NCBI GenBank assembly: GCA_030604325.1
Contig: JAUVWC010000002.1
Coordinates: forward strand, 1-13,956
Reading direction: 5' to 3'
Origin: Candidatus Zixiibacteriota bacterium
Lineage (GTDB): Bacteria; Blakebacterota; Blakebacteria; Blakebacterales; Blakebacteraceae
Length of the DNA: 13,956 bases
Positions 2 to 12,317 of the stretch are shown here, one piece after another. A model generated the notes under the pieces. That model searched no databases. It was given only the letters and a program-made list of their open reading frames with translations, and had not been told where the DNA came from. The position numbers and the translations under genes were made by a program. Position 1 is the stretch's first letter, and each line of letters opens with the position of its first letter.

Positions 2-250
2 ATGATCATTGCCGAGCGCTGCAAGGGATGCGGATTCTGCGTTGAATACTGTCCGAAGGGCGTACTGGTGCTCTCCGAGGAATTCAACCGCAAGGGGTAT
101 CATCCGCCGAAGGTGATCAAGCACGGGGAGTGCGTGAACTGCAACCTGTGCGAGATGATCTGCCCCGATTTCGCCATCTTCAGCGTGGAGGTGTCTGAAG
201 CCGGTGCTGCAGGTTCTCCTGCGGAGCAGAAGAAGGAGGACTCCCAGTGA
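2..250 (+). CDS. korD: 2-oxoacid:ferredoxin oxidoreductase, delta (2x[4Fe-4S] ferredoxin) subunit; start may lie upstream
   Basis: Small electron-transfer subunit that carries electrons from the KorB thiamine-diphosphate site to free ferredoxin in the cytoplasm. Two complete four-cysteine [4Fe-4S] motifs are visible: C7, C10, C13, C17 followed by Pro, and C44, C47, C50, C54 followed by Pro. The 82 codons fit the family size. The tail after about residue 64 is Ala/Glu/Lys-rich and looks unstructured. The ATG at position 2 could be the true start, because family members begin only a few residues before the first cysteine, but the upstream sequence is outside the window and a slightly longer protein is possible. 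Its stop overlaps the GTG start of korA (GTGA), which indicates translational coupling. The gene order D-A-B-C is the one known for archaeal KorDABC and related bacterial enzymes. Substrate specificity cannot be read from this subunit. Confidence 0.88.
   Translation: MIIAERCKGCGFCVEYCPKGVLVLSEEFNRKGYHPPKVIKHGECVNCNLCEMICPDFAIFSVEVSEAGAAGSPAEQKKEDSQ
233..240 (+). promoter_or_regulatory. Shine-Dalgarno site supporting the GTG start of korA
   Basis: AAGGAGGA lies 6 nt upstream of the GTG at 247 and inside the end of korD. It is an almost perfect anti-16S match at good spacing. It decides for the GTG, since the next in-frame ATG (position 322) falls inside the conserved N-terminal domain. Confidence 0.8.
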
Positions 251-1404
251 AAACTGATCCTGCAGGAGTACTGACGGGCGCTCACTATCTCGACGGTGAT
301 TTCGCCGCCGGCGAGGGAGCGATGGCCGCCGGATGTCGCTTCGTGGCCGGCTACCCTATTACGCCATCCACCGAGGTTGTGGAACGGATAGCACGCAGAT
401 TCCCGATGATGGGCGGCACCTTCATCCAGATGGAGGATGAACTGGCCAGCATGGCCGCCGTGGTGGGAGCTTCATGGACCGGCACGAAGTCGATGACCGT
501 CACCAGCGGTCCCGGCTTCAGCCTGATGATGGAGAACATCGGCCTGGCGGCGATGATGGAAACTCCCTGTGTGGTGGTGAACGTGCAGCGCGGCGGACCC
601 TCGACGGGGCTGCCCACGATGACGGGGCAGGCCGACATGATGCAGGCCCGTTGGGGCTCGCACGGCGACTACGAGCTGATCGCCATGAGCCCCAAGTCAC
701 CCCAGGAAACATTCGACCTGATGATCGACGCCTTCAACATTTCCGAAATCTACCGGGTGCCGGTCCTCTTCATGATGGACGAGTGTGTGGGTCACATGAC
801 AGAGAAGGTTATCATCCCCCCCGCCGAAGAGATCGAGATCGTCGCCCGCAAGCTTACCGACAAGAAGCCGGGGGAATACTGGCCCTATGAGCTCAACGGC
901 GGCGATATCCCCGAGTTCGCCCGCGCGGGTGACGGTTACCACTTCCATTCCACCGGCCTGACACACGACTACCGGGGCTATCCGGAAATGAGCGCCGAGT
1001 GCCAGTGGGACTGTGTGGGACACCTCGTTAACAAGATCCACAACAACGTGGACGACATCGTCCGCTTCGAAGAGGAAGAGATCGAGGGTGCCGACGTGGT
1101 CGTCCTGACCTACGGAATCACTTCTCGGGTGGCGCGCCTCGGCATCGAAATGGCCCGGGATAAAGGCATAAAGGTCGGCTCGATCCGGTTGATCGTCGTC
1201 TGGCCGTTTCCGGAGAAACGAATCCGGGAGCTGGCCGGGAAGATAAAGGGATTCGTAGTTCCGGAGATCAACCTCGGTCAGATGGTTCTAGAAGTGGAGC
1301 GCTGTGCGGCGGGCCAAGCCCCCGCGATCGGCGTACCGCACCCCGGTGGGGGTGTCCACGATCCGAACGCAATTGTTGAAGCAATCGTAGGAGCTGCAAA
1401 ATGA
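247..1404 (+). CDS. korA: 2-oxoacid:ferredoxin oxidoreductase, alpha subunit
   Basis: Alpha subunit of a 2-oxoacid:ferredoxin oxidoreductase, which with KorB forms the CoA-dependent decarboxylating core. The N-terminal pyrimidine-binding-type domain shows AGYPITPS at about residues 34-41, then QMEDELASMAAVVGAS, TSGPGFSLMMEN and QRGGPSTGLPT, all hallmarks of KorA/PorA-type subunits. The C-terminal domain (about residues 279-385) has VLTYGITSR, then VGSIRLIVVWPFPEK and an HPGGG segment near the end. Its 385 residues are typical for KorA-like proteins. The start is the GTG at 247, supported by AAGGAGGA. The gene ends in an ATGA overlap with korB. 2-oxoglutarate (succinyl-CoA product) is the likeliest substrate because of the four-subunit D-A-B-C organisation, but branched-chain 2-oxoacids (Vor) cannot be excluded by eye. 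Confidence 0.93.
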   Translation: MKTDPAGVLTGAHYLDGDFAAGEGAMAAGCRFVAGYPITPSTEVVERIARRFPMMGGTFIQMEDELASMAAVVGASWTGTKSMTVTSGPGFSLMMENIGLAAMMETPCVVVNVQRGGPSTGLPTMTGQADMMQARWGSHGDYELIAMSPKSPQETFDLMIDAFNISEIYRVPVLFMMDECVGHMTEKVIIPPAEEIEIVARKLTDKKPGEYWPYELNGGDIPEFARAGDGYHFHSTGLTHDYRGYPEMSAECQWDCVGHLVNKIHNNVDDIVRFEEEEIEGADVVVLTYGITSRVARLGIEMARDKGIKVGSIRLIVVWPFPEKRIRELAGKIKGFVVPEINLGQMVLEVERCAAGQAPAIGVPHPGGGVHDPNAIVEAIVGAAK

Positions 1405-2333
1405 GTGCAGAGGCAGAAACACAGAGTGCAGAGGCAGAAACACAGGTTGAGAAGAGAGAAGTCCAGGCGGAAGAGCACCCGGTTGCTCCATTCATCCGCA
1501 TGGACCGCATGCCCCACATCTGGTGTCCGACGTGCGGCATCGGCACGGTGGTCAAGTGTTACGCCAGTGCTCTCGAAAATCTGAAACTGGATCTGGATAA
1601 GGTGGCCATAGTCTCCGGAATCGGCTGCACCGGCCGGGTGGCCGGGTACATGAACATGGATGCGTTCCATACGACCCACGGCCGTGCCGTTCCCTTCGCT
1701 ACCGGGCTGAAGCTGGGGCGACCGGAACTGAATGTGACCGTCTTTTCGGGAGACGGGGACCTGTCGGGAATTGGCGGCAATCATTTCATCCACTCCGCCC
1801 GCCGGCACATGGACATCCTGGTGATCCTGGTCAACAACTTCATTTATGCCATGACCGGAGGGCAGAACGCGCCGACAACTCCCCTCGGGGCGAATTCGTC
1901 CACCATGCCGTTCGGCAACTTCGAGCCGCCCTTCAACCTGCCCCACCTGGCCGCCAGCTGCGGGGCGAGTTACGTGGCAAGGTGGACCTGCCTGCACATC
2001 CGCCGCATGACCAAGGCGTTCGAGGAGGGGCTCGAGCGCAAGGGATTCCGGTTCATCGAAATCATCGCCCCCTGTTCGACGCTGTATGCCCGCCGCAACA
2101 GACTGGGTACCGGTCTGAACCTGTTGCTTTTCTTTGTTGTTTTTGTGGAGATCCAGCACGGCGTGGACACCCGGGAAGTAGGCATCGCCTTCCAGGAGAA
2201 GATCATCTGCGGCAAGTTCGTCGATGACGAGGAACAGACCACCTTCCTCGAGAACATGAATGCGCATTACGAGAGGGTCCTCGGCGATAAATATGTCTCC
2301 ATGCCGCCCGAGGGAGGGTGGATCCATGAGTAG
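1401..2333 (+). CDS. korB: 2-oxoacid:ferredoxin oxidoreductase, beta (thiamine diphosphate) subunit
   Basis: Catalytic subunit that binds thiamine diphosphate and a [4Fe-4S] cluster. Visible motifs are WCPTCGIG at 41-48 (usually WCPGCG), GIGCTGR at 73-79, the TPP/Mg2+ motif GDGD at 117-120 with NN at 145-146, and TGGQ soon after. The C-terminal part has the usual ARRNRLGT, GKFVDDE and VLGDKY elements. Its 310 residues exceed most KorB proteins because of an acidic N-terminal extension of roughly 30 residues that begins with a perfectly duplicated heptapeptide (SAEAETQ twice). A strongly hydrophobic stretch, LLLFFVVFV, occupies a place that is normally a polar helix; it is encoded by an unusually T-rich patch at 2124-2146. 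The start at 1401 overlaps the korA stop, and the last codons overlap the korC start by 8 nt. Confidence 0.92.
   Translation: MSAEAETQSAEAETQVEKREVQAEEHPVAPFIRMDRMPHIWCPTCGIGTVVKCYASALENLKLDLDKVAIVSGIGCTGRVAGYMNMDAFHTTHGRAVPFATGLKLGRPELNVTVFSGDGDLSGIGGNHFIHSARRHMDILVILVNNFIYAMTGGQNAPTTPLGANSSTMPFGNFEPPFNLPHLAASCGASYVARWTCLHIRRMTKAFEEGLERKGFRFIEIIAPCSTLYARRNRLGTGLNLLLFFVVFVEIQHGVDTREVGIAFQEKIICGKFVDDEEQTTFLENMNAHYERVLGDKYVSMPPEGGWIHE
1404..1445 (+). repeat. Perfect 21-bp tandem duplication in the 5' end of korB
   Basis: Positions 1404-1424 and 1425-1445 are identical, 21 of 21 bases. The duplication is in frame and gives two copies of the heptapeptide SAEAETQ immediately after the initiator methionine. 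It probably arose by slippage in a disordered, acidic N-terminal tail. Confidence 0.95.
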
Positions 2334-2922
2334 GAAGGAAATCCGTATCACCGGCTTCGGCGGCCAGGGTGTCGTGCTGTCGGGTCACATAATCGGCCGC
2401 GCCTACTCTATCGACGCCGGCAACGAGGCCACCATGATCCAGAGTTTCGGCCCCGAGGCGAGGGGCTCGGCCTGCAGCACAACGCTGGTGCTCTCCGAAG
2501 GAGAAGTGCTCTACCCTTACCTGCAGGAGCTCGACGCCCTCGTGGCCATGTCCGGCGACGGGTACGAGAAGTACAAGGACGACCTGAACGACGACGGCAT
2601 CCTCGTCTACGAGAAGGACCTGGTGAAGCCCACTCTTAAGGAAGGGCAGCCCGCTTACGGTATCACCTCCACCCGCATTGCCGAGGAGATCGGACGGGTG
2701 ATCGTGCAGAACATCGTCATGCTCGGCTTCTTCGCCGCCGTCACCGATCTGGTCACTAAAGAGCAGTGGGAGAATGCAATCAAGGACTCGGTCCCGGCCG
2801 GCACCGAGGAACTGAACCTGAAGGCATTCCGCGCCGGATGGGACTACTTCGACGAGCACTACGACGGGGGGAAACCCGCCGGGCAGGAAACAGCATCAAT
2901 ACCGGCCGAGAAAGCCGATTAG
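2326..2922 (+). CDS. korC: 2-oxoacid:ferredoxin oxidoreductase, gamma subunit
   Basis: Gamma subunit that completes the Kor complex. The N-terminus carries GFGGQGV at residues 10-16, the signature of KorC/PorC gamma proteins, followed by SFGPEARGSACS at 40-51 and a VAMSGDGYEKY segment. Its 198 residues are a little over the usual 180-190; the excess is a polar tail (GGKPAGQETASIPAEKAD) that looks disordered. The ATG at 2326 is chosen because GGGAGGG at 2312-2318 sits 7 nt upstream and residue 1 then precedes the beta strand leading into the glycine motif. An in-frame ATG at 2260 would add 22 unconserved residues and overlap korB heavily. It is the last gene of the tightly coupled kor block; 85 nt separate it from hdrA. 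Confidence 0.93.
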   Translation: MSRKEIRITGFGGQGVVLSGHIIGRAYSIDAGNEATMIQSFGPEARGSACSTTLVLSEGEVLYPYLQELDALVAMSGDGYEKYKDDLNDDGILVYEKDLVKPTLKEGQPAYGITSTRIAEEIGRVIVQNIVMLGFFAAVTDLVTKEQWENAIKDSVPAGTEELNLKAFRAGWDYFDEHYDGGKPAGQETASIPAEKAD

Positions 2923-3007: not shown

Positions 3008-6000
3008 ATGACCACTAACGCCGCAGGATCGGACGAGGTGGTAAAGGCAGGGGGCAAGCGCGCCGTCGTGATCGGCGGGGGCATCGCCGGTATGCAGGCG
3101 GCCCTCGACCTGGCCGACGCACGCATCCCCGTGATCTTGGTGGAGGCATCACCGTCGCTGGGAGGCCGCATGGCCCAGCTCGACAAGACGTTCCCCACCA
3201 TGGACTGCTCTATCTGAATCCTCGGCCCTAAGGCCATGGATGCCGGTCGGCATCCACTGATCGATGTAGTCACCAACGCCGAGGTTGTCGGCTGCGAAGG
3301 CAGTCCGGGCAACTTCAAGGTCCAGGTACGCAAGAACCCGCGTTATGTCAGGGAAGATGCATGCGTAGCCTGCGGCACGTGCGTCGATTCCTGCCCCCAG
3401 GTCGGCGGCAATGAGTTCGACATGGGCCTCAAGGCGCGCAAGGCGATCTACCGGCCCTTCCCCCAGTCGGTACCGGCAGCCTATGTGATCGATCCCCAAT
3501 CCTGTCTGAACTTCTACCCCCATCTGGACGAAAAACAGATCACCCGGCTGGAGAAGGTCAGGGCGGCCAAGTTGCGCAAGCAGCCCGACCTCACCCTGCC
3601 CCACCTGCCCTGCGGCCACTGCATGGATGTATGCGACGTCGACGCCATCGACTTCGACATGACGGCCGAGGAGTTCGAGGTGGAGGCAGGTGCCATCCTG
3701 GTGGCCATCGGATTCCAGGAATTCGATGCGCGCAAGCTCGGTCAGTACGGCTACGGACGTTACCCGAACGTGGTCACCAGCCTGGAGCTGGAGCGGATGC
3801 TGAACGCTTCGGGTGTAACCGGCGGTCATGTGGTCCGACCCTCCGATATGGAAACCCCGGAGCGTATCGTATTCATCCAGTGCGTGGGCGCCCGCGGTGA
3901 CGGAGGCCGCCCCTACTGCAGCCGCTTCTGCTGCATGAACGCCGTCAAGGATTCGATGCTCATCCGCCAGCACGACCCGGCGGTGCAGGACATCACCATC
4001 CTCTACACCGATCTGCGCGCGTTCGGGAAAGGATTCGACGACTTCGTCAAACGCTCGGTGGAGGAACAGAGCGCCGTCTACATGCGGGGCCGCCCGGCCA
4101 AGATCGAGCACCGGCCGGAGGATGACACCCTGCTCATCTACATAGAGGACACGCTGGAGCACGAGCAGAAACAGGTCCCCGCCGACCTGGCCGTCCTCTC
4201 GGTGGCCGCCGCGCCCAACGACGGTGCGGTGGAACTGGCGAAAACGCTGGGCATCGAGACCAACCAGTACGGATTCATCACTCCCCGCGATCCGGCCGTG
4301 TCCGCTGTGGAGACGGTGCGGGAAGGCATCTACGTGTGCGGAAGCGCCGTCGGGCCGCAGGTGATCCCCGACTGCGTGGCCCAGGCCTCGGCCTCCGCCG
4401 CCAGGGCGGAGCTGTTTCTGGCCGGCTCCCGCCTCGAGGAAGAAGAAGAGAAACCCGAACCGCTGGAGCTGTCCGGCCCGCCGCGCATCGGCGTGATGGT
4501 CTGCAGCTGCGGGGCGAACATCGGCGGCGTACTGGATGTGGAGGACCTGGCTATCTACGCTCAGACGATCCCACACGTCGTGGCCACCACTACATCCCTG
4601 TTCTCCTGCGCCGAAACGGGCCAGGAAGAGCTGGTCGAACTGATCAGGGAAAACAACCTGAACCGTATCATTGTGGCCTCGTGTACACCGCGCACTCACG
4701 AACCGGTTTTCCGTGACACCTGCGCGCGGATCGGCTTCAACCCCTACCTGCTCGACATGGTGAACATCCGCGACCAGTGCTCGTGGGTGCACGCCAATCA
4801 GCCCGAGCTGGCCCAGGATAAGGCCCGCGACCTCATCAGGATGAGCGTGGCCCGGGCCCGCAACCTGGAGCCCCTGTTCGAGGGAGAGGTGCCGATGGTC
4901 CGCACCGCCCTCATCATCGGCGGGGGCATCGCCGGCATCCAGGCGGCCACCGACCTGGCCGAACAGGGATTCCAGGTAGTCCTGGTTGAGAAGGCTGACA
5001 AACTGGGCGGACGGCTCCGCTCCCCCAACCTGAAGGTTCTCTATCCGAACATGCGTCCGGCGGAGGAGATCCTGAAGAACAAGATCAAGCGACTGGAGAA
5101 GAGCAACGCCCGGATCTTGCTCAATACCGAAGTGGAGGATATCACCGGCTTTGTCGGCAACTTCGAAGTGACGCTGACGGGGGATACCGAGGAGGTGGTG
5201 AAGATGGGCGTGATCATCCTCGCCTTCGGCGCCGCGCTGCATGATCCGGCGGGCGAATTCGGCTACGGCAAACTGCCGAACGTCATCACCAGTGAGGAAC
5301 TGGAACGCATCTTCTTCGAGCACGACGACGAGGTCGTCATTAAAGGCAAAAAGCCGAAGAGCGCCTCATTCATCTTGTGCGTCGGCTCACGCGAGGAGGA
5401 AGGATTCACCGGGTGTTCCCGCTACTGCTGCCCCACCGCCATCAAGCAGGCGCTGCATCTCAACTCTCTCGGGATCGATACCACTGTCTTCTACCGTGAT
5501 ATCCGCACCATCTCCGCCGGAGCGGAGGAGATGTACCGCGAGGCCAGGGGCAAGGGCGTGCTCTTCGTGCGCATCCCGCCGGATGAAAAACCCGAGATCA
5601 TTGGGGAGAAGAAAGTCGAAGTGATCCGCTGCTACGATGAGCTGCTCGGGCAGAAGCTGGAGGTGGAAACCGACCTGATCGTGCTGAGCGTCGGCATGAG
5701 ACCGAAACAGCCCGAGACCGAGAAGTACCACCTCATGCTGAAGGCGAGCCTCGGCCTCGACGGTTTCTTCCTGGAGCGCCACCCCGAACTGGCGCCAGTG
5801 GAGACGGTGATAGAGGGGGTGTTCCTGGCGGGGACCGTCCAGGGCCCGAAAGATATCGTGGACTCGGTCGCTCAGGCCTCGGCCGCCGCCGCCAAGGCAG
5901 CCGTGCTCCTCTCTTTCGACAGCGTGCGGGTGGAGCCAACGGTCTCGGTGGTGGACGAGCTCAGGTGCCGGGCGTGCGGTACCTGCGTTGAGGTCTGCGC

Positions 6001-6190
6001 CTATGCCGCGGCGGAGCTTGTCGAGATCGAACCCGGCCTGCACGTGGCGCGCATCAACCCGTCGCTGTGCAAGGGTTGCGGGGTCTGCGCGGCATGGTGC
6101 CCCTCATCGGCGATCGCCGCCAGACACTCTACCGACAGCCAGGTGATGGCCATGATCGACACCGCCTTCGTCGAGGAGGAAGTGCAATGA
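3008..6190 (+). CDS. hdrA: Double HdrA-like flavoprotein, selenoprotein (UGA at 3215 = Sec70)
   Basis: Cytoplasmic FAD/iron-sulfur protein of the HdrA family, 1060 residues when UGA 3215-3217 is read as Sec70. Half A has FAD motif GGGIAG (23-28), PTMDCSI-U-IL, an inserted ferredoxin region with C119/122/125/129 and C166/C202/205/209, then C292 and C304/308/309 (CVG..CSxxCC). Half B starts near 491 with an HdrA N-terminal domain (C499, C501, C534, C559), a second GGGIAG (638-643) and CVG..CSxxCC (C791, C803, C807, C808). It lacks both the Cys/Sec motif and the inserted ferredoxin. The C-terminal ferredoxins use C987/990/993/997 and C1021/1024/1027/1031. Ordinary HdrA has about 650 residues, so this is a fused pseudo-dimer. 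The ATG at 3008 follows AGAGGAA with 7-nt spacing; a GTG at 3002 is in frame but has no spaced Shine-Dalgarno. The frame is open on both sides of the UGA. The stop overlaps the mvhD start (ATGA). The FAD site would be where bifurcation or confurcation occurs. Confidence 0.9.
3215..3256 (+). promoter_or_regulatory. Selenocysteine UGA and bacterial SECIS-like hairpin of hdrA (copy 1)
   Basis: The UGA at 3215-3217 sits where HdrA has Cys in DCSxC-I-L. Downstream, 3237-3244 pairs with 3249-3256 in a perfect 8-bp stem capped by the loop GGUC (3245-3248), 27 nt after the UGA. A smaller GGCC-CUAA-GGCC hairpin (3224-3235) lies between. Bacterial SECIS elements follow the UGA at once and usually expose G/GU in the apical loop for SelB. 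Nine codons in this stretch keep the same synonymous bases in the second hdrA. Confidence 0.85.
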
Positions 6191-6915
6191 CGGCCGCGCC
6201 CAGGAAGACCTCGACCGGGAAGACGGCCGCCAAGAAGAAGACGGCCGGCAAAGCTTCAGCCAAAAAGACGACGGTGAAGAAGACAACAGCCAGGAAGGTG
6301 ACAGCCAAGCAGGCCGCGGTGAAGAAGGCTGTCACAAAAAAAGCAGCATCCAGGAAAGCGGCTACCAGGAAGACCGCAGCGAAGAAGGCCGCTGCAAAGA
6401 AGGCTCGGGTAAAGAAGACCGTGGCCAAAAAGGTTGTTCCGGTAAAGGCCGCAGCCGAGAAGGCTCCCGCCAGGAAGGCGCCGCCGGCGAAGACGGGCTG
6501 GAATCCCAACATCGTCGTCTTCGCCTGCAACTGGTGTTCATATGCCGGCGCCGACACGGCGGGCGTGTCCCGGATCCAGCACGAACCGCACTTCCGGACG
6601 ATCCGCGTCATGTGTTCGGGAAGGATCCACCCTGGATTCGTGCTGCGGTCGTTCGAGAAGGGCGCCGACGGTGTGATGGTCTCGGGCTGCCACATCGGTG
6701 ACTGTCACTATGTATCAGGCAACGAGCGTCAGCTGGAGCTGTTCGAGATCACCAAGAAGCTGATCCATCTGCTCGGGCTGGAACCGGAACGGGTCCGGCT
6801 GGAGTGGATCAGCGCCGCCGAAGGTCCGCGGTGGGCGGCCATCATAAACGAGTTCACCGATCAGGTCCGCAGGCTGGGACCGAGTCCGCTCAAGGGCGAA
6901 CGCAAGGCAGGATAG
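6187..6915 (+). CDS. mvhD: MvhD-like [2Fe-2S] protein with histone-H1-like lysine-rich N-terminal extension
   Basis: Electron-transfer subunit that in methanogen complexes links a hydrogenase or formate dehydrogenase to HdrA. The MvhD domain spans about residues 107-235 of 242 and keeps the expected cysteines: C114 and C117 (FACNWCSYAG), C143 (VMCSGR), C168 and C173 (SGCHIGDCHY), followed by LEWISAAEG. No cysteine is replaced by Sec. Residues 1-102 are a low-complexity extension with 30 Lys and 6 Arg in alternating Ala/Thr-Lys-Lys patterns, resembling bacterial H1/HU-tail sequences. Normal MvhD is about 130-140 residues. The ATG at 6187 overlaps the hdrA stop; an earlier in-frame ATG at 6067 lies deep inside hdrA and is rejected. 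With no hydrogenase nearby, its electron donor is unknown; the Kor ferredoxin or an unlinked enzyme are candidates. Confidence 0.9.
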   Translation: MTAAPRKTSTGKTAAKKKTAGKASAKKTTVKKTTARKVTAKQAAVKKAVTKKAASRKAATRKTAAKKAAAKKARVKKTVAKKVVPVKAAAEKAPARKAPPAKTGWNPNIVVFACNWCSYAGADTAGVSRIQHEPHFRTIRVMCSGRIHPGFVLRSFEKGADGVMVSGCHIGDCHYVSGNERQLELFEITKKLIHLLGLEPERVRLEWISAAEGPRWAAIINEFTDQVRRLGPSPLKGERKAG

Positions 6916-6930
6916 AGAGAATCAGGGGCG

Positions 6931-8073
6931 ATGGTGGAACTGGCGGAAGTAACCAGGAAATCGAGGGCCTGGGCCTGCTACGACTGCGGCAAGTGCACGG
7001 CAACCTGCCCTATTGCAAGGGTCGGTGGTTCCTACAGCCCGCGCCGGCACATCCTGAGCAGCAATACGGGCGATCCCCGTGAAGTGCTCGAACTGGAAAC
7101 ACTGTTTGCCTGCCTCTCCTGCAGCCTCTGCGAGCAACGCTGCCCCGCACAGGTGATCTATACCGACATTGTCCTGGCGCATAGGGAGATAGCCCACGAC
7201 GAAGGGATCGAACCGGATTGCCCGCACGGAGGCACCCTGCAGTCCATCATGCGGCTGATGGCCACTGGCGGCATGGAGCAGAACCGTATGGAGTGGCTGG
7301 ACAAGGGCGTGCAGACCGAACCGGAGAAGGGCGAGATCTTCTACTGGACCGGCTGCGCCGTCTACTACGACGCCCTCTTTCCCGACTACGGGGCGAGACC
7401 GATCGAGGGTGTGAAGGCAGCCGTGAACATCTTCAACAAACTCGACGTCACCCCGGTCGTCTCCCCACTGGAGCGGTGCTGCGGGCACGACCTGCTCTGG
7501 AACGGCGACGTCGGGAACTTCGAGAAGCTCGCCAGGCACAATGTGAAGCTGGTGGAGGAGAGTGGAGCCGAAATGCTGGTGACCTCCTGCGCGGAGTGCC
7601 TGCACATATGGAAGAAGGAATACCAACGCTTCTTCGCGGGCCAGCCGCCGGAGATCCTCCACATCAGCGAGTACCTGGTCGAGCGTATGCCGGATCTGGA
7701 GCTGAAAGATAACGGCGGGCTCAAGGTCACCTATCAGGACCCCTGCCGCCTCGGCCGGCACTTGGAGATCTACGATCCGCCACGGGAGGTCGTAACGGCC
7801 GTCCCCGGCGTCGAACTGGTGGAGATGCAGCACACGAAAGCGAGCTCGGCGTGCTGTGCGGGGGGAACCTGGTCGAACTGTGACATCTTCGCCAAGAAGA
7901 TCCAGGTGGACCGTCTGCGCGAGGCCCGCGCAACGGGTGCCGAAATAATGGTGACGGCATGCCCCAAGTGCCAGATTCACTTCAGCTGCGCCATGAAGGA
8001 CCCCAACCTCAAGGAGGAGATTGAGATCGAGATGCGCGACGTTGCCGAACTGGTAGCGGACGCCATCGCGTGA
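6931..8073 (+). CDS. HdrC-HdrB fusion (HdrD-like) with two [4Fe-4S] motifs and two CCG domains
   Basis: A 380-residue protein joining an HdrC-type ferredoxin domain to an HdrB-type catalytic domain, as in HdrD and related (Fe-S)-oxidoreductases. Ferredoxin cysteines are C16, C19, C22, C26 and C61, C64, C67, C71. The first CCG domain uses C142, C183-C184-Gly and C220/C223; the second uses C272, C308-C309 and C344/C347. In HdrB such domains bind noncubane [4Fe-4S] clusters that split heterodisulfides. No membrane segment is visible, so a soluble complex is likely. The gene follows mvhD by 15 nt. ATG 6931 is used; a GTG three nt later is better spaced from AGGGG and cannot be excluded. The same architecture occurs in GlpC-, LutA- and TmcB-like proteins, so the substrate is not proven to be a disulfide. 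Confidence 0.87.
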   Translation: MVELAEVTRKSRAWACYDCGKCTATCPIARVGGSYSPRRHILSSNTGDPREVLELETLFACLSCSLCEQRCPAQVIYTDIVLAHREIAHDEGIEPDCPHGGTLQSIMRLMATGGMEQNRMEWLDKGVQTEPEKGEIFYWTGCAVYYDALFPDYGARPIEGVKAAVNIFNKLDVTPVVSPLERCCGHDLLWNGDVGNFEKLARHNVKLVEESGAEMLVTSCAECLHIWKKEYQRFFAGQPPEILHISEYLVERMPDLELKDNGGLKVTYQDPCRLGRHLEIYDPPREVVTAVPGVELVEMQHTKASSACCAGGTWSNCDIFAKKIQVDRLREARATGAEIMVTACPKCQIHFSCAMKDPNLKEEIEIEMRDVAELVADAIA

Positions 8074-8161
8074 GCGGATCCGGAGCCCGCGGCCACCTGC
8101 CGGGGATTCCGGGCCGGAAGCAGTAACAACAGAGAATCGTTTTCGGGAAGGAAAAGGATTG

Positions 8162-10657
8162 ATGGTTTCTAATGTAGCTACGGACGAGGAACTCCGCGTT
8201 GGTGTCTTTGTCTGCGACTGCGGTCTGAACATCGCGGGCGCCGTAGACACCGCTGCCGTGGCGGAATACGCCGAGACGCTGCCGGACGTGACGTGCGTGG
8301 TGCGCAATAAGTACACCTGCGCCGATCCCGGTCAGAACGAAATCAAGGACGCCGTCCGACAGCACAACCTCAACCGTGTCGTCGTCGCCTCCTGCACGCC
8401 GAGACAGCACGAGCCGACATTCAGGCAGTGTGTGTACGAAGCAGGCCTGAACCCGTACCTGATGGAGATGGCCAACCTGCGCGAACACTGCTCGTGGGTG
8501 CACCCCGACGACCGGGACGGCGCCACGGCAAAAGCCAAGGATCTCGTGGCCAGTGCCGTGGCGCGGGCGCGCTTCCTGCAGGCTCAGGAGGAGATGTCGG
8601 TACCGGTCTCACAGCGGGCGCTGGTGATCGGGGGCGGGATCGCAGGAATCGAGGCCGCCCTCGAGATGGCCGAGGCCGGGCACAAAGTCACTCTGGTCGA
8701 GAAGACACCGTCCATCGGTGGGGTCATGGCTCAGTTGGACAAGACCTACCCCACCATGGACTGCTCTATATGAATACTGGGCCCTAAGGCCATCGATGCC
8801 GGTCGGCATCCGAACCTAGAGCTTCTCACCTACTCCGAAGTCGAAGAGGTTTCCGGCTACATCGGAAACTTCACGGTCAAGATCCGGAAGAAGGCCCGCT
8901 ACGTAGATCCGGACGAGTGCAACTCATGCGGGGACTGCGTCGACGTCTGCCCACAGGTCGCCCCCGACGAGTACCAGATGGGTCTCTCCTCGCGCAAGGC
9001 GATCTATATCCCCTTCCCCCAGGCCGTACCCTGCTCCTACATCCTCAACATGGAGGACTGTCTCGGCAACAATCCGATAGCGTGCGGCAAGTGCGCTGAG
9101 GTCTGTGAGAAGAACGCCATCAATTACGACGACCAGGACGAGTTCGTGATACGGGAGGTGGGAGCGGTCATAGTGGCCATCGGTCTCGACGTCTACGACC
9201 CGACCGAGATGGACGAGTACGGCTACACCCGCTTCGAGAACGTCATCACCTCGATGGAGTTCGAGCGCCTGATCTGCGCCGGCGGGCCGACCGCCGGCCA
9301 CTTCGTGCGTCCCAGCGACCAGGTGCGTCCCACACGGATCGGGTTCATCCAGTGCGTCGGTTCGAGGAACCCGTCGATCGGCCGGCCCTACTGCTCGAAC
9401 ATCTGCTGCATGAACACCATCAAGGACACGCTGCTGCTGGCCGACCACTACCCGGATGTGAAAAACGTGGTCTTCTACCAGGACATCAGGGCATTCGGCA
9501 AGTCGTTCGAGGACATGTTCCAGCGCTCGAAGAAGGTGGGCACCCGCTACGTCAGGGGGCTGCCGGGTGATATCGAAGAGGACCCGGAGACGCAGAACCT
9601 GACCATCACGGTGGAGAATACGACCTCCGGTAAGCTCGAACATCACGAGCTGGACATGGTCGTGCTGTCGGTGGGTGTCGTCCCACCCGAGGACCTGAAG
9701 AAGATCTCGGGGCTGCTCACGCTGTCCAAGACTTCCGACGGCTTCTTCATGGAGTCGCACCCGAAGCTGAAGCCGATCGACGCTCCGACGAGGGGTGTGT
9801 ACTTCGCCGGCTTCTGCGAGGCCCCCAAGGACATCAAGGAATCGGTCTGTCAGGCGGGTGCGGCCGCCTCGAAAGTAGGAGGGCTCCTTAACGCCGGTGA
9901 GATCCACATCGAGGCGATCACCAGCGTCATCGACCAGGAAGCATGCACTATGTGCGGGGTGTGCGCCCCGATCTGCCCCTACTCCGCCATCGTCTGGGAG
10001 AAGGGTCAGCCCGCCATGGTGATCGAAGCGGCCTGTGCCGGCTGCGGTGCGTGCGCGGCGGCCTGCAACTTCAACGCCATTACCATGCGCCACTTCACCG
10101 ACGACCAGCTGCTCGCCCAGGTGCGCGCGGTGCTGGCGGAGAAACCGGAAGAGAAGGTGTTCGTCTTCGCCTGCAACTGGTGTTCCTACGCCGGTGGCGA
10201 CATGGCCGGTATCTCACGGCTGAAATACCCCTCTACCAACCGTGTGATCAGAACCATGTGCTCGGCTCGTGTGTCGGAAGAGATGGTCCTGGAGGCGTTC
10301 CTGTGCGGAGCTCCGGTCGTGCTTGTCTCGGGCTGCCACTACGCCGACTGTCACTACATCAACGCCAACCGGCAGACGGTCAAGCACGTACAGCGCCTGT
10401 GGAACAAGCTGGAGAGGGCCGGCGTGCGGCCCGAGCGCTTGCAGCTCGAATGGATCAGCGCCGCCGAGGGTCAGAAGTTTGCCAACGTGATGAGGCAGAT
10501 GGAGGAGCTGCGCCAGACCGTCACCGCCGAGGAGATCGAACACGCCCGCGAGGCACTCAAGCCGAAGCCGAAGAAGGAGAAGAAGCCGAAGACCGAGAAG
10601 GAAGAAGCCGACAAGGAGGAAACCCCAGAGGAAGAGGCCGAAACCGTTACCAGTTAA
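8162..10657 (+). CDS. hdrA: HdrA-MvhD fusion flavoprotein, selenoprotein (UGA at 8771 = Sec204)
   Basis: Second HdrA, 831 residues when UGA 8771-8773 is read as Sec204. In order: HdrA N-terminal domain (C18, C20, with SCTPRQHEP), FAD motif GGGIAG (157-162), PTMDCSI-U-IL (C201, U204), inserted ferredoxins C253/256/259/263 and C300/C308/311/315, CVG..CSxxCC (C398, C411, C415, C416), and C-terminal ferredoxins C595/598/601/605 and C625/628/631/635. A complete MvhD domain follows (about 664-785; C671, C674, C700, C725, C730, then EWISAAEG), ending in a Lys/Glu-rich tail from about 798. HdrA fused to MvhD is also known for QmoB-type proteins. The reading frame between the UGA and the next in-frame ATG (8978) translates into uninterrupted HdrA sequence, including a ferredoxin motif, so the gene is not two genes. 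ATG 8162 is preceded by GGGAAGG (8145-8151). It follows the HdrD-like gene by 88 nt. Confidence 0.91.
8771..8812 (+). promoter_or_regulatory. Selenocysteine UGA and bacterial SECIS-like hairpin of hdrA (copy 2)
   Basis: The UGA at 8771-8773 is in the same protein context as the one at 3215. A 6-bp stem (8795-8800 with 8805-8810) is capped by GGUC (8801-8804), again exactly 27 nt after the UGA. Positions 8780-8811 match 3224-3255 at 31 of 32 bases. The one difference (C at 8794 for G at 3238) shortens the stem but leaves loop and spacing intact. Confidence 0.83.
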
Positions 10658-10660
10658 CAA

Positions 10661-10680
10661 CCGTCCCCGCAGGGGGACGG
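10661..10680 (+). other. Intercistronic 8-bp hairpin after the hdrA-mvhD fusion gene
   Basis: CCGTCCCC (10661-10668) pairs perfectly with GGGGACGG (10673-10680) around the loop GCAG, beginning 3 nt after the hdrA stop. No T-run follows, so it is not a typical intrinsic terminator. It may be an mRNA-processing or stabilising element separating the large hdrA message from the zinc-ribbon/hdrC/hdrB part. Confidence 0.65.
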
Positions 10681-10708
10681 AACCGGCAGCGAGAGTGGAG
10701 AGAGAGAG

Positions 10709-10860: not shown

Positions 10861-11418
10861 ATGGCGGCAGAAAAAGGCAGGGCAGCCAAAGGCGGGGCTG
10901 CTAAAGGCACGGCCAGTAAAGGCGGGAAAGCCGACATTGTACACGTTGACTTCGCCTTCAAGAGGGAACTCGCCGAGAAGATCGAGGGAAACCTGGCCAG
11001 CTTCTGCTACCAGTGCGGAGCCTGTGTCGGCGACTGCCCGGCGGCAACCTACACCGACGACTTCAATCCCCGCATGATCATGCTCAAAGTACTCTACGGC
11101 CTCGGCGAAGAACTGATCGGCAGCGAATCGCTTCTCTGGGAATGCACGAACTGTTACAACTGCGCCGAGCGATGCCCGCAGGATGTGAAGCCGGTCGAGG
11201 TCATCATCAGCATGAAGAACATGATGGCCGACCGGGGCATCTACCCCGAAGGGGTGGAGAAGGTCATCAATACATTCGAGACCACGGGACGCACCGTCCC
11301 CATGAGCTCCGCGGTCGATAAGCAGCGTGCGCGGTTCGGACTACCGCCGCTGCCCCCCGTGCCGATGGAGGAGATCCAGGCGCTGATCGGACCGGCGCCG
11401 GCGACAGGAGAAGAATGA
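10861..11418 (+). CDS. hdrC: Heterodisulfide reductase subunit C-like ferredoxin protein
   Basis: HdrC-type subunit that relays electrons from HdrA to HdrB. The two [4Fe-4S] motifs are C49, C52, C55, C59 (FCYQCGACVGDCP) and C95, C98, C101, C105 (ECTNCYNCAERCPQ), with the helical linker FNPRMIMLKVLYGLG between them as in HdrC. Its 185 residues include a Gly/Ala/Lys-rich N-terminal tail of about 24 residues (repeats of AAKG type) that HdrC normally lacks. The ATG at 10861 is fixed by AAGGAG 8 nt upstream; the open frame further upstream overlaps the zinc-ribbon gene. The stop overlaps the hdrB start (ATGATG), so hdrC and hdrB are translationally coupled. The C-terminal part is Pro-rich and probably flexible. 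Confidence 0.92.
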   Translation: MAAEKGRAAKGGAAKGTASKGGKADIVHVDFAFKRELAEKIEGNLASFCYQCGACVGDCPAATYTDDFNPRMIMLKVLYGLGEELIGSESLLWECTNCYNCAERCPQDVKPVEVIISMKNMMADRGIYPEGVEKVINTFETTGRTVPMSSAVDKQRARFGLPPLPPVPMEEIQALIGPAPATGEE

Positions 11419-12317
11419 TGGAGCGCTTTGCCTTCTTCCCCGGTTGCCTGGTCCCCGCGCGCTATCCCGCCATGGAGTTCGCTATCCGGCAGAGCCTGCT
11501 GAAACTGGGTATCGAGATCGTCGACCTGGAGGGCACCTCCTGCTGCCCCGACCCGATCTACTTCAAGTCGAAGGATAAACTGTCCTGGCTGTCGGTGGCC
11601 GCCCGCAATCTCTGCCTCGCGGAAAAGACGGGAGTAGACCTCTTCACTAACTGTTCGGGCTGCACGGCAACCCTATCCGAGGCCTGGCACCTGCTCCATG
11701 AGGACGAGGAACTCAGGGAGAAAGTGAACCGGCGCCTGGCAAAGATCGGGATGGAGTGGAAAGGGACAAGCAAGGTCCGGCACATCGCAACGCTTGTTCG
11801 TGACTTCGTGGGTTACGAAAAGATCAGTGAGACGGTGGTGCGCCCGCTCGACGGGCTCCAGGTCGCGATCCATTACGGCTGCCACCTGCTCAAGCCGAGC
11901 AACATCATGAAGGTGGACGATCCCAACGATCCCTCCATGATGGAAGACTTGGTCAGGGCCCTCGGGGCCGACCCGGTCCGCCACCGGAAGTGGTACCTCT
12001 GCTGCGGCAAGGCTTGCACGGATGAGGACCTCCCTTCCAACATGATGAGGGACCTCCTTACCACTGTGAGGGACGAGCAGGCCGAGCTCCTCTGCCTCAT
12101 CTGCCCCACCTGTTTCGGGCAGTTCGACCACGGCCAGATGCGGATCGCCAAGCTGTTCGAAGAGGATTTCAGTACGCCGCCGGTCTATTACTTCCAGCTG
12201 CTTGCCCTGGCCCAGGGTGAACCGTACGAGAACCTGGGATTCGAGCGCCAGCGATTCAAGCCGGAGTGCCTGAAGCGTTTCGAGATACAGGAACCTGTGG
12301 AGGAAGCCACTTCGTAA
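11415..12317 (+). CDS. hdrB: Heterodisulfide reductase subunit B-like protein, two CCG domains
   Basis: HdrB-type catalytic subunit. Two full cysteine-rich CCG domains are present: C11, C43-C44, C80/C83 (spacings x31 and x35, matching the HdrB pattern) and C156, C196-C197, C230/C233. In methanogen HdrB each domain holds a noncubane [4Fe-4S] cluster and cleaves the CoM-CoB disulfide; a bacterium without those cofactors would use another thiol or acceptor, which the sequence does not reveal. The 300-residue length is typical. ATG 11415 overlaps the hdrC stop; the adjacent ATG 11418 lies 7 nt after AGGAG and is an equally good start. As the last gene of the cluster it is followed by a strong terminator. 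It coexists with the HdrC-HdrB fusion at 6931, so the cluster has two different catalytic heads. Confidence 0.93.
   Translation: MMERFAFFPGCLVPARYPAMEFAIRQSLLKLGIEIVDLEGTSCCPDPIYFKSKDKLSWLSVAARNLCLAEKTGVDLFTNCSGCTATLSEAWHLLHEDEELREKVNRRLAKIGMEWKGTSKVRHIATLVRDFVGYEKISETVVRPLDGLQVAIHYGCHLLKPSNIMKVDDPNDPSMMEDLVRALGADPVRHRKWYLCCGKACTDEDLPSNMMRDLLTTVRDEQAELLCLICPTCFGQFDHGQMRIAKLFEEDFSTPPVYYFQLLALAQGEPYENLGFERQRFKPECLKRFEIQEPVEEATS

Follow-up and report, generated by a model that had tools for sequence, protein, structure and literature searches.

Predicted selenocysteine at the Cys197 site of two HdrA proteins encoded in a KOR–Hdr operon of a Candidatus Zixiibacteriota bacterium

HdrA proteins that contain selenocysteine (Sec) form an established selenoprotein family. 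The passages on HdrA in PMC1794560 place such proteins in archaea and Deltaproteobacteria, and describe fused hdrA-hdrA genes in Syntrophobacter operons as well as operons of the hdrA-frhD-frhG-frhA type; those in PMC2702500 add several Sec-HdrAs in Desulfobacterium. The part of PMC5029168 that treats HdrA gives the numbers 42 and 103, which we read as organisms and sequences, and the HdrA entry of the review PMC13188914 gives ‘1’, which we read as one Sec per protein. As for the motif, the HdrA entries of two reviews (PMC9312934; PMC13188914) give CxxU only. Two-module chains with the Cys197 site in one module and the N-terminal cluster domain in the other occur in ANME HdrA3/HdrA4 and Moorella MetFV-HdrABC-MvhD, according to the sections of PMC9012536 on these fused proteins. 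In the crystal structure discussed there, from Methanothermobacter wolfeii, the partner's N-terminal cluster has Cys197 among its ligands (we equate this structure with 5odc by residue number and alignment only). A further described arrangement, HdrA2 type Ia, comprises an N-terminal domain, an FAD domain, ferredoxins and a C-terminal MvhD (PMC12054007; NF040770).

The locus described here occupies a window of 13,956 nucleotides (the whole stretch of DNA that was analysed) and forms a single plus-strand operon in the order korD, korA, korB, korG, double HdrA, mvhD, a gene for a 380-aa protein, HdrA-MvhD, hdrC and hdrB (Table 1). Its double HdrA and HdrA-MvhD fusion are almost certainly further members of the Sec-HdrA family. 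As in the proteins treated in the HdrA passages of PMC2702500 and PMC1794560 (the latter also with fused hdrA-hdrA), a UGA replaces the Cys of a CxxC pair; unlike the operons described in PMC1794560, this is a KOR–Hdr operon with two predicted Sec-HdrAs, in a genome whose closest relative with a name carries the label Candidatus Latescibacterota. The double HdrA shares with the ANME and Moorella proteins, as presented in those sections of PMC9012536, the two-module chain and the division of Cys197 site and N-terminal cluster domain between modules, but its module order is the reverse of that in the ANME fusions, and in contrast to the ANME and Moorella proteins 16 of the 18 double HdrAs compared here have Sec at the Cys197 site. 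The fusion has the same parts as HdrA2 type Ia (PMC12054007) and differs from it in being bacterial, in having a UGA at the Cys197 site and in its lysine-rich C-terminal tail.

Table 1. Genes, in-frame UGA codons and hairpins of the operon (window coordinates).
Feature	Position	Strand	Basis
korD-like ferredoxin subunit	2..250	+	Pfam; start perhaps cut off by window edge
korA-like subunit of 2-oxoacid:ferredoxin oxidoreductase	247..1404	+	Pfam
korB-like subunit	1401..2333	+	Pfam
korG-like subunit	2326..2922	+	Pfam
Double HdrA, 1060 codons with UGA as Sec	3008..6190	+	ORF, profiles, solved-structure alignment
In-frame UGA, codon 70, predicted Sec	3215..3217	+	ORF, same-family relatives, homologue alignment
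SECIS hairpin GAUGCC-GGUC-GGCAUC, 21 nt past UGA	3239..3254	+	Sequence, folding, homologue comparison
MvhD-like protein, lysine/alanine-rich N-terminal tail	6187..6915	+	Pfam
380-aa HdrC/HdrB-like Fe-S protein, two CCG domains	6931..8073	+	Pfam
HdrA-MvhD fusion, 832 codons with UGA as Sec	8159..10657	+	ORF, profiles
Second in-frame UGA (codon 205 with TTG 8159 as start), predicted Sec	8771..8773	+	ORF, relatives, homologue alignment
SECIS hairpin of second UGA, identical 16 nt, equal spacing	8795..8810	+	Sequence, folding, homologue comparison
HdrC-like protein	10861..11418	+	Pfam
HdrB-like protein, two CCG domains	11415..12317	+	Pfam

Judged by its gene content, the operon would link a 2-oxoacid:ferredoxin oxidoreductase with an electron-bifurcating or confurcating Hdr/MvhD complex. 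Class II benzoyl-CoA reductase likewise has a double HdrA, BamE, but no benzoyl-CoA reductase genes are found among the window's genes by Pfam. The complete order from korD-A-B-G to hdrB is conserved at five other loci (L025, L028, L029, L156 in genome G002 and L158 in G304), and others depart from it to varying degrees: korG has moved downstream at L162 (G165), hdrC and hdrB lie on the opposite strand at L159 (G274) or upstream of the double HdrA at L160, L161 and L163, L166 (G209) is without the fusion and the 380-aa protein, and L167 and L168 combine a double HdrA with mvhD but have no kor genes (L026, L027 and L157 are truncated by contig ends in this comparison). The two HdrA genes may also differ at the site within one genome, as in G137, where a Cys double HdrA adjoins a UGA fusion in a stretch without hdrC/hdrB (L164), and in G139, which has a UGA fusion and, at another locus, a Cys double HdrA (L165, L169). 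Two side observations concern the genes around the HdrAs. The N-terminal tail of the MvhD-like protein matches the histone H1-like HC2 family (Pfam PF07382), and alignment with its counterparts at L025, L028 and L029 begins only at about residue 95–105. The GC-rich hairpin with which the HdrA-MvhD gene ends (10653–10684) resembles a CRISPR repeat on the minus strand at a sub-threshold Rfam score (22.6 bits against a cut-off of 39) and is more likely a terminator or mRNA hairpin.

The original prediction held that the double HdrA frame is open on both sides of a UGA that stands for a residue usually Cys in HdrAs, and that this UGA is a selenocysteine codon. The frame is indeed interrupted by this TGA alone, after 69 sense codons, and HdrA similarity crosses it without a break; the residue is Cys in both solved HdrAs aligned and in 36 distinct homologues, and codon 70 aligns, counted from the alignment, with Cys197 of 5odc chain A. 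Module 1 covers approximately residues 17–478 and module 2 approximately residues 491–1054. To the single site of the original prediction we add a second, in the HdrA-MvhD fusion, whose frame (alternative start ATG 8162) is likewise interrupted by one TGA alone. Both UGAs fall on the same HdrA residue, within PTMDCSI-U-ILGPKA in either protein. Both proteins match solved HdrAs or HdrA profiles: against NF040770 (cut-off 1100) the fusion scores 1125 bits, with C put for U, and the double HdrA 1022, under the cut-off and in three stretches.

The two TGAs recur among relatives. Genomes G002 and G003, of the same family, keep both, with double HdrAs 82% and 81% identical to ours. In the genus-mate G001, at the first site, the contig begins between UGA and hairpin (L036, G001:C8), a break in the assembly that may come from a near-repeat common to both HdrA genes. 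Among 11 named loci, seven have TGA in one HdrA or more (two MAGs with the label Acidobacteria and one each with Phycisphaerales, Candidatus Fermentibacteria, Planctomycetota, Candidatus Latescibacterota and simply ‘bacterium’), three have Cys (under the labels Deltaproteobacteria, Lokiarchaeota and Bathyarchaeota), and one, 90% identical and again with the label Candidatus Latescibacterota, starts past the site. A search of 386 whole genomes yielded 114 with a match of E no higher than 1e-15, with at least 42 TGA rows in at least 25 genomes among the matches listed. These 42 rows and 10 from the named loci, 52 in all, gave a set of 51 UGA homologues after one exact duplicate was dropped. The corresponding Cys set consists of 10 loci of the genome search, six from named loci and relatives, the first 18 non-TGA rows without a locus, two hand-picked Cys double HdrAs and one Cys row (G288), 37 in all and 36 once one duplicate was dropped. 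Members of both sets had an ungapped score of at least 60 to a 29-residue HdrA template and were compared without gaps. Cys67, the partner of the UGA residue, is Cys in 49 of the 51 UGA homologues and is itself UGA in the other two, the HdrA-MvhD fusions at L111 (G139) and L119 (G060). These have two UGAs three codons apart (PTMD-U-AI-U-ILGP, or UxxU) and one hairpin, 27 nt past the second UGA, which would serve both.

SelB- and SECIS-dependent bacterial selenoproteins have a SECIS hairpin just 3′ of the UGA, and the hairpin found here is conserved and carries compensating changes. A stem-loop with GGUC at its tip had been noted 27 nt past the first UGA, and it stands at that distance, counted from UGA to loop; the 16 nucleotides common to both sites, GATGCCGGTCGGCATC, form a 6-bp stem with a GGUC loop. 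Folded as single sequences, the two sites are modestly better than shuffles (z −2.66 and −2.09 for 41-nt pieces, −1.94 and −1.30 for 51-nt pieces), and Rfam, run over the window, reported neither hairpin, a tRNA being its one match above cut-off. The strong evidence lies in comparison, in the TGA kept by G002 and G003 and in the difference between the two sets. All six stem pairs are complete in 45 of 51 UGA copies versus none of 36 Cys copies (standard pair cells: 296/306 versus 110/216), the GGUC loop is present in 44/51 versus 2/36, mean folding energy is −12.0 versus −6.7 kcal/mol, and a bacterial-SECIS-like hairpin is found in 51/51 versus 8/36. One stem pair covaries across the UGA copies (C-G 28, U-A 16, U-G 4, unpaired 3), its 16 double changes being reached by 0 of 500 shuffles; the Cys control copies were indistinguishable from their own shuffles in the same covariation test. 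At the codon level, Ala GCC occurs with Arg CGG 27 times and with CGA never, and Val GTC with CGA 16 times and with CGG four times (Fisher p 3.2e-9; as the homologues are related, neither this p nor the shuffle counts are independent-sample values). A silent change of Arg codon thus tracks an Ala/Val change on the opposite side of the stem. Protein-level selection does not account for this, and we take the hairpin to be selected as RNA. Compensating changes are confined to this pair, with none at the other five among the 51 UGA copies, and RNAalifold gives just −4 kcal/mol. One stem pair is broken in five UGA copies (L032, L034, L129, L130, L132), which may, from their sequences, use a shifted hairpin, and another pair is broken in one copy.

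The original prediction also called for a search for selA, selB, selC and selD, and all of these except selB were found. The genome has selA on contig C253 (TIGR00474, 472 bits) and, on C102, a tRNA-Sec with anticodon UCA (Rfam 67.4 bits, cut-off 47) on which ARAGORN agrees, an agreement that matters because the Rfam tRNA-Sec model is also above cut-off in 5 of 14 control genomes. Two selD genes exceed the cut-off (G000:C168:2083-3000, L082, and G000:C304:1949-2872, L078); one has an in-frame TGA and is probably a Sec-containing SelD, and one lies inside a 741-aa open frame and is possibly a fusion. No selB was found in the assembly, which is 63% complete in 343 contigs; the sole candidate, on C266, is LepA. 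Absence of selB or selC from a complete genome had been named as evidence against selenocysteine, and the missing selB does not amount to this, since the assembly is incomplete and selB is over cut-off in both G002 (321 bits) and G003 (313 bits). In G001 there is a partial selB match under cut-off at a contig edge, and no tRNA-Sec above cut-off among the matches listed. More broadly, selB exceeds the cut-off in 21 of 22 further UGA-HdrA genomes (22 of the 25, the other three being those covered separately above) versus 11 of 22 genomes picked for having exactly one HdrA match, with Cys; the one UGA-HdrA genome without selB above cut-off is G165 (227 bits).

Could the UGAs be something other than Sec codons? 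The draft assembly is fragmented, as would suit a sequencing or assembly error (TGA for TGC/TGT) or a pseudogene, but we regard either as extremely unlikely: the same TGA is found in the paralogue, in G002 and G003 and in seven of the 11 named loci, its recurrence at one place in separately assembled relatives and a paralogue makes a base-calling error unlikely, and the remaining frame is open and conserved over 990 codons. That UGA is read as another residue, through general reassignment to Trp or a Cys-inserting suppressor tRNA, seems to us improbable, if slightly less far-fetched, since a Cys-inserting suppressor would fit the protein sequence equally well, the homologues having Cys. TGA is not simply reassigned, as it ends five of the 10 operon genes; moreover, the UCA-anticodon tRNA found is a tRNA-Sec by both Rfam and ARAGORN, and the conserved, covarying hairpin at the UGA is a SECIS feature absent from the Cys copies. 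A true or regulated stop would mean two polypeptides, or else a short regulatory product, and a restart of translation at ATG 3236; in favour of this reading, that ATG lies 19 nt downstream of the UGA and is used by gene callers. Such a cut would fall within the FAD-binding fold and lose the Cys197-site residue, at a site that is Cys and no stop in 36 distinct homologues and next to a hairpin conserved only with UGA, and we give this reading almost no weight, although partial termination may accompany Sec insertion. Homologues, hairpin, selA, tRNA-Sec(UCA) and selD all favour selenocysteine, and on this sequence evidence the UGAs at 3215–3217 and 8771–8773 each almost certainly encode it. The hairpin 21 nt past each UGA would recruit SelB with Sec-tRNA-Sec(UCA), and translation would continue through the UGA into full-length HdrA.

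The architecture of the double HdrAs bears on what the Sec may do. In all 18 whole double HdrAs compared (L027, which runs off its contig, and L036, which starts past the UGA, are excluded), the Cys/Sec197 loop belongs to module 1 (16 Sec, 2 Cys). Module 2 retains the N-terminal cluster cysteines at 499, 501, 534, 559 and 591, and its matching loop is without cysteine. In the 15 of the 18 for which the first FAD motif was read, it lies 23–47 residues from the start or the upstream stop, too close for module 1 to hold an N-terminal domain. Given these complementary modules and the position of Sec70 at the Cys197 site, the most likely arrangement is that Sec70 meets the cluster of module 2 in the same chain and, as judged from sequence, probably completes that [4Fe-4S] cluster. 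Electrons passing from the bifurcating FAD to ferredoxin would travel by way of the cluster so completed. For the HdrA-MvhD fusion, the exchange of Sec would be reciprocal between two copies. We tentatively suggest, with confidence a little short of even, that Sec at the Cys197 site could be a selenolate ligand to a [4Fe-4S] cluster bridging two HdrA modules (intrachain in the double HdrA, reciprocal in the fusion) and could tune the ferredoxin branch of a KOR-tied bifurcating complex.

Alternatively, the Sec is inserted but works together with Cys67 as a thiol/selenol redox pair of the CxxU type, not as a cluster ligand, a reading that is doubtful but well within reach. It agrees with the classing of HdrA as a CxxU selenoprotein in the HdrA entries of the two reviews (PMC13188914; PMC9312934) and with the near-invariance of its partner, residue 67, as Cys, or else UGA, in the UGA homologues. 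It sits less well with the ligand role of Cys197 towards the partner's cluster in the crystal structure, as reported in the structural passage of PMC9012536, and with the complementary fashion in which loop and cluster domain are lost or kept in 18 of 18 double HdrAs. If the Sec is instead a bridging-cluster ligand, the UxxU fusions, two of the 51 UGA homologues, would put two selenols at the cluster site. Our literature search met neither a UxxU HdrA nor a statement that the HdrA Sec ligates a cluster, although such a statement may stand in the original HdrA structure paper (Wagner 2017).

The Sec-HdrA family is known, and what has been hidden, by annotation, is the nearest branch of the double HdrA. 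A standard gene call had been expected to split this gene into a short fragment and a truncated HdrA, and ORF calling does so, giving 71 aa from GTG 3002 (69 aa from ATG 3008) and 984 aa from ATG 3236. The same pattern is seen in its closest database relatives: of the best 120 of 7,515 (P0003–P0122, with P0003 the window's own fragment), 117 start at query residue 77, two at 76 and one at 105, 107 begin with MDAGRHPLI, and none contains the UGA site. As this search scored the 7,998 candidates sharing most words, it describes the nearest branch and not HdrAs in general. Gene callers begin at a methionine past the UGA, so that these 120 relatives are left without the start of the FAD-binding domain and without the Sec. 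Reading through the UGA in such truncated entries would restore a selenium requirement to the KOR–Hdr energy metabolism of little-studied anaerobes, and a Sec on the very residue described as an inter-module cluster ligand would offer a concrete and testable answer to what selenocysteine does in HdrA.
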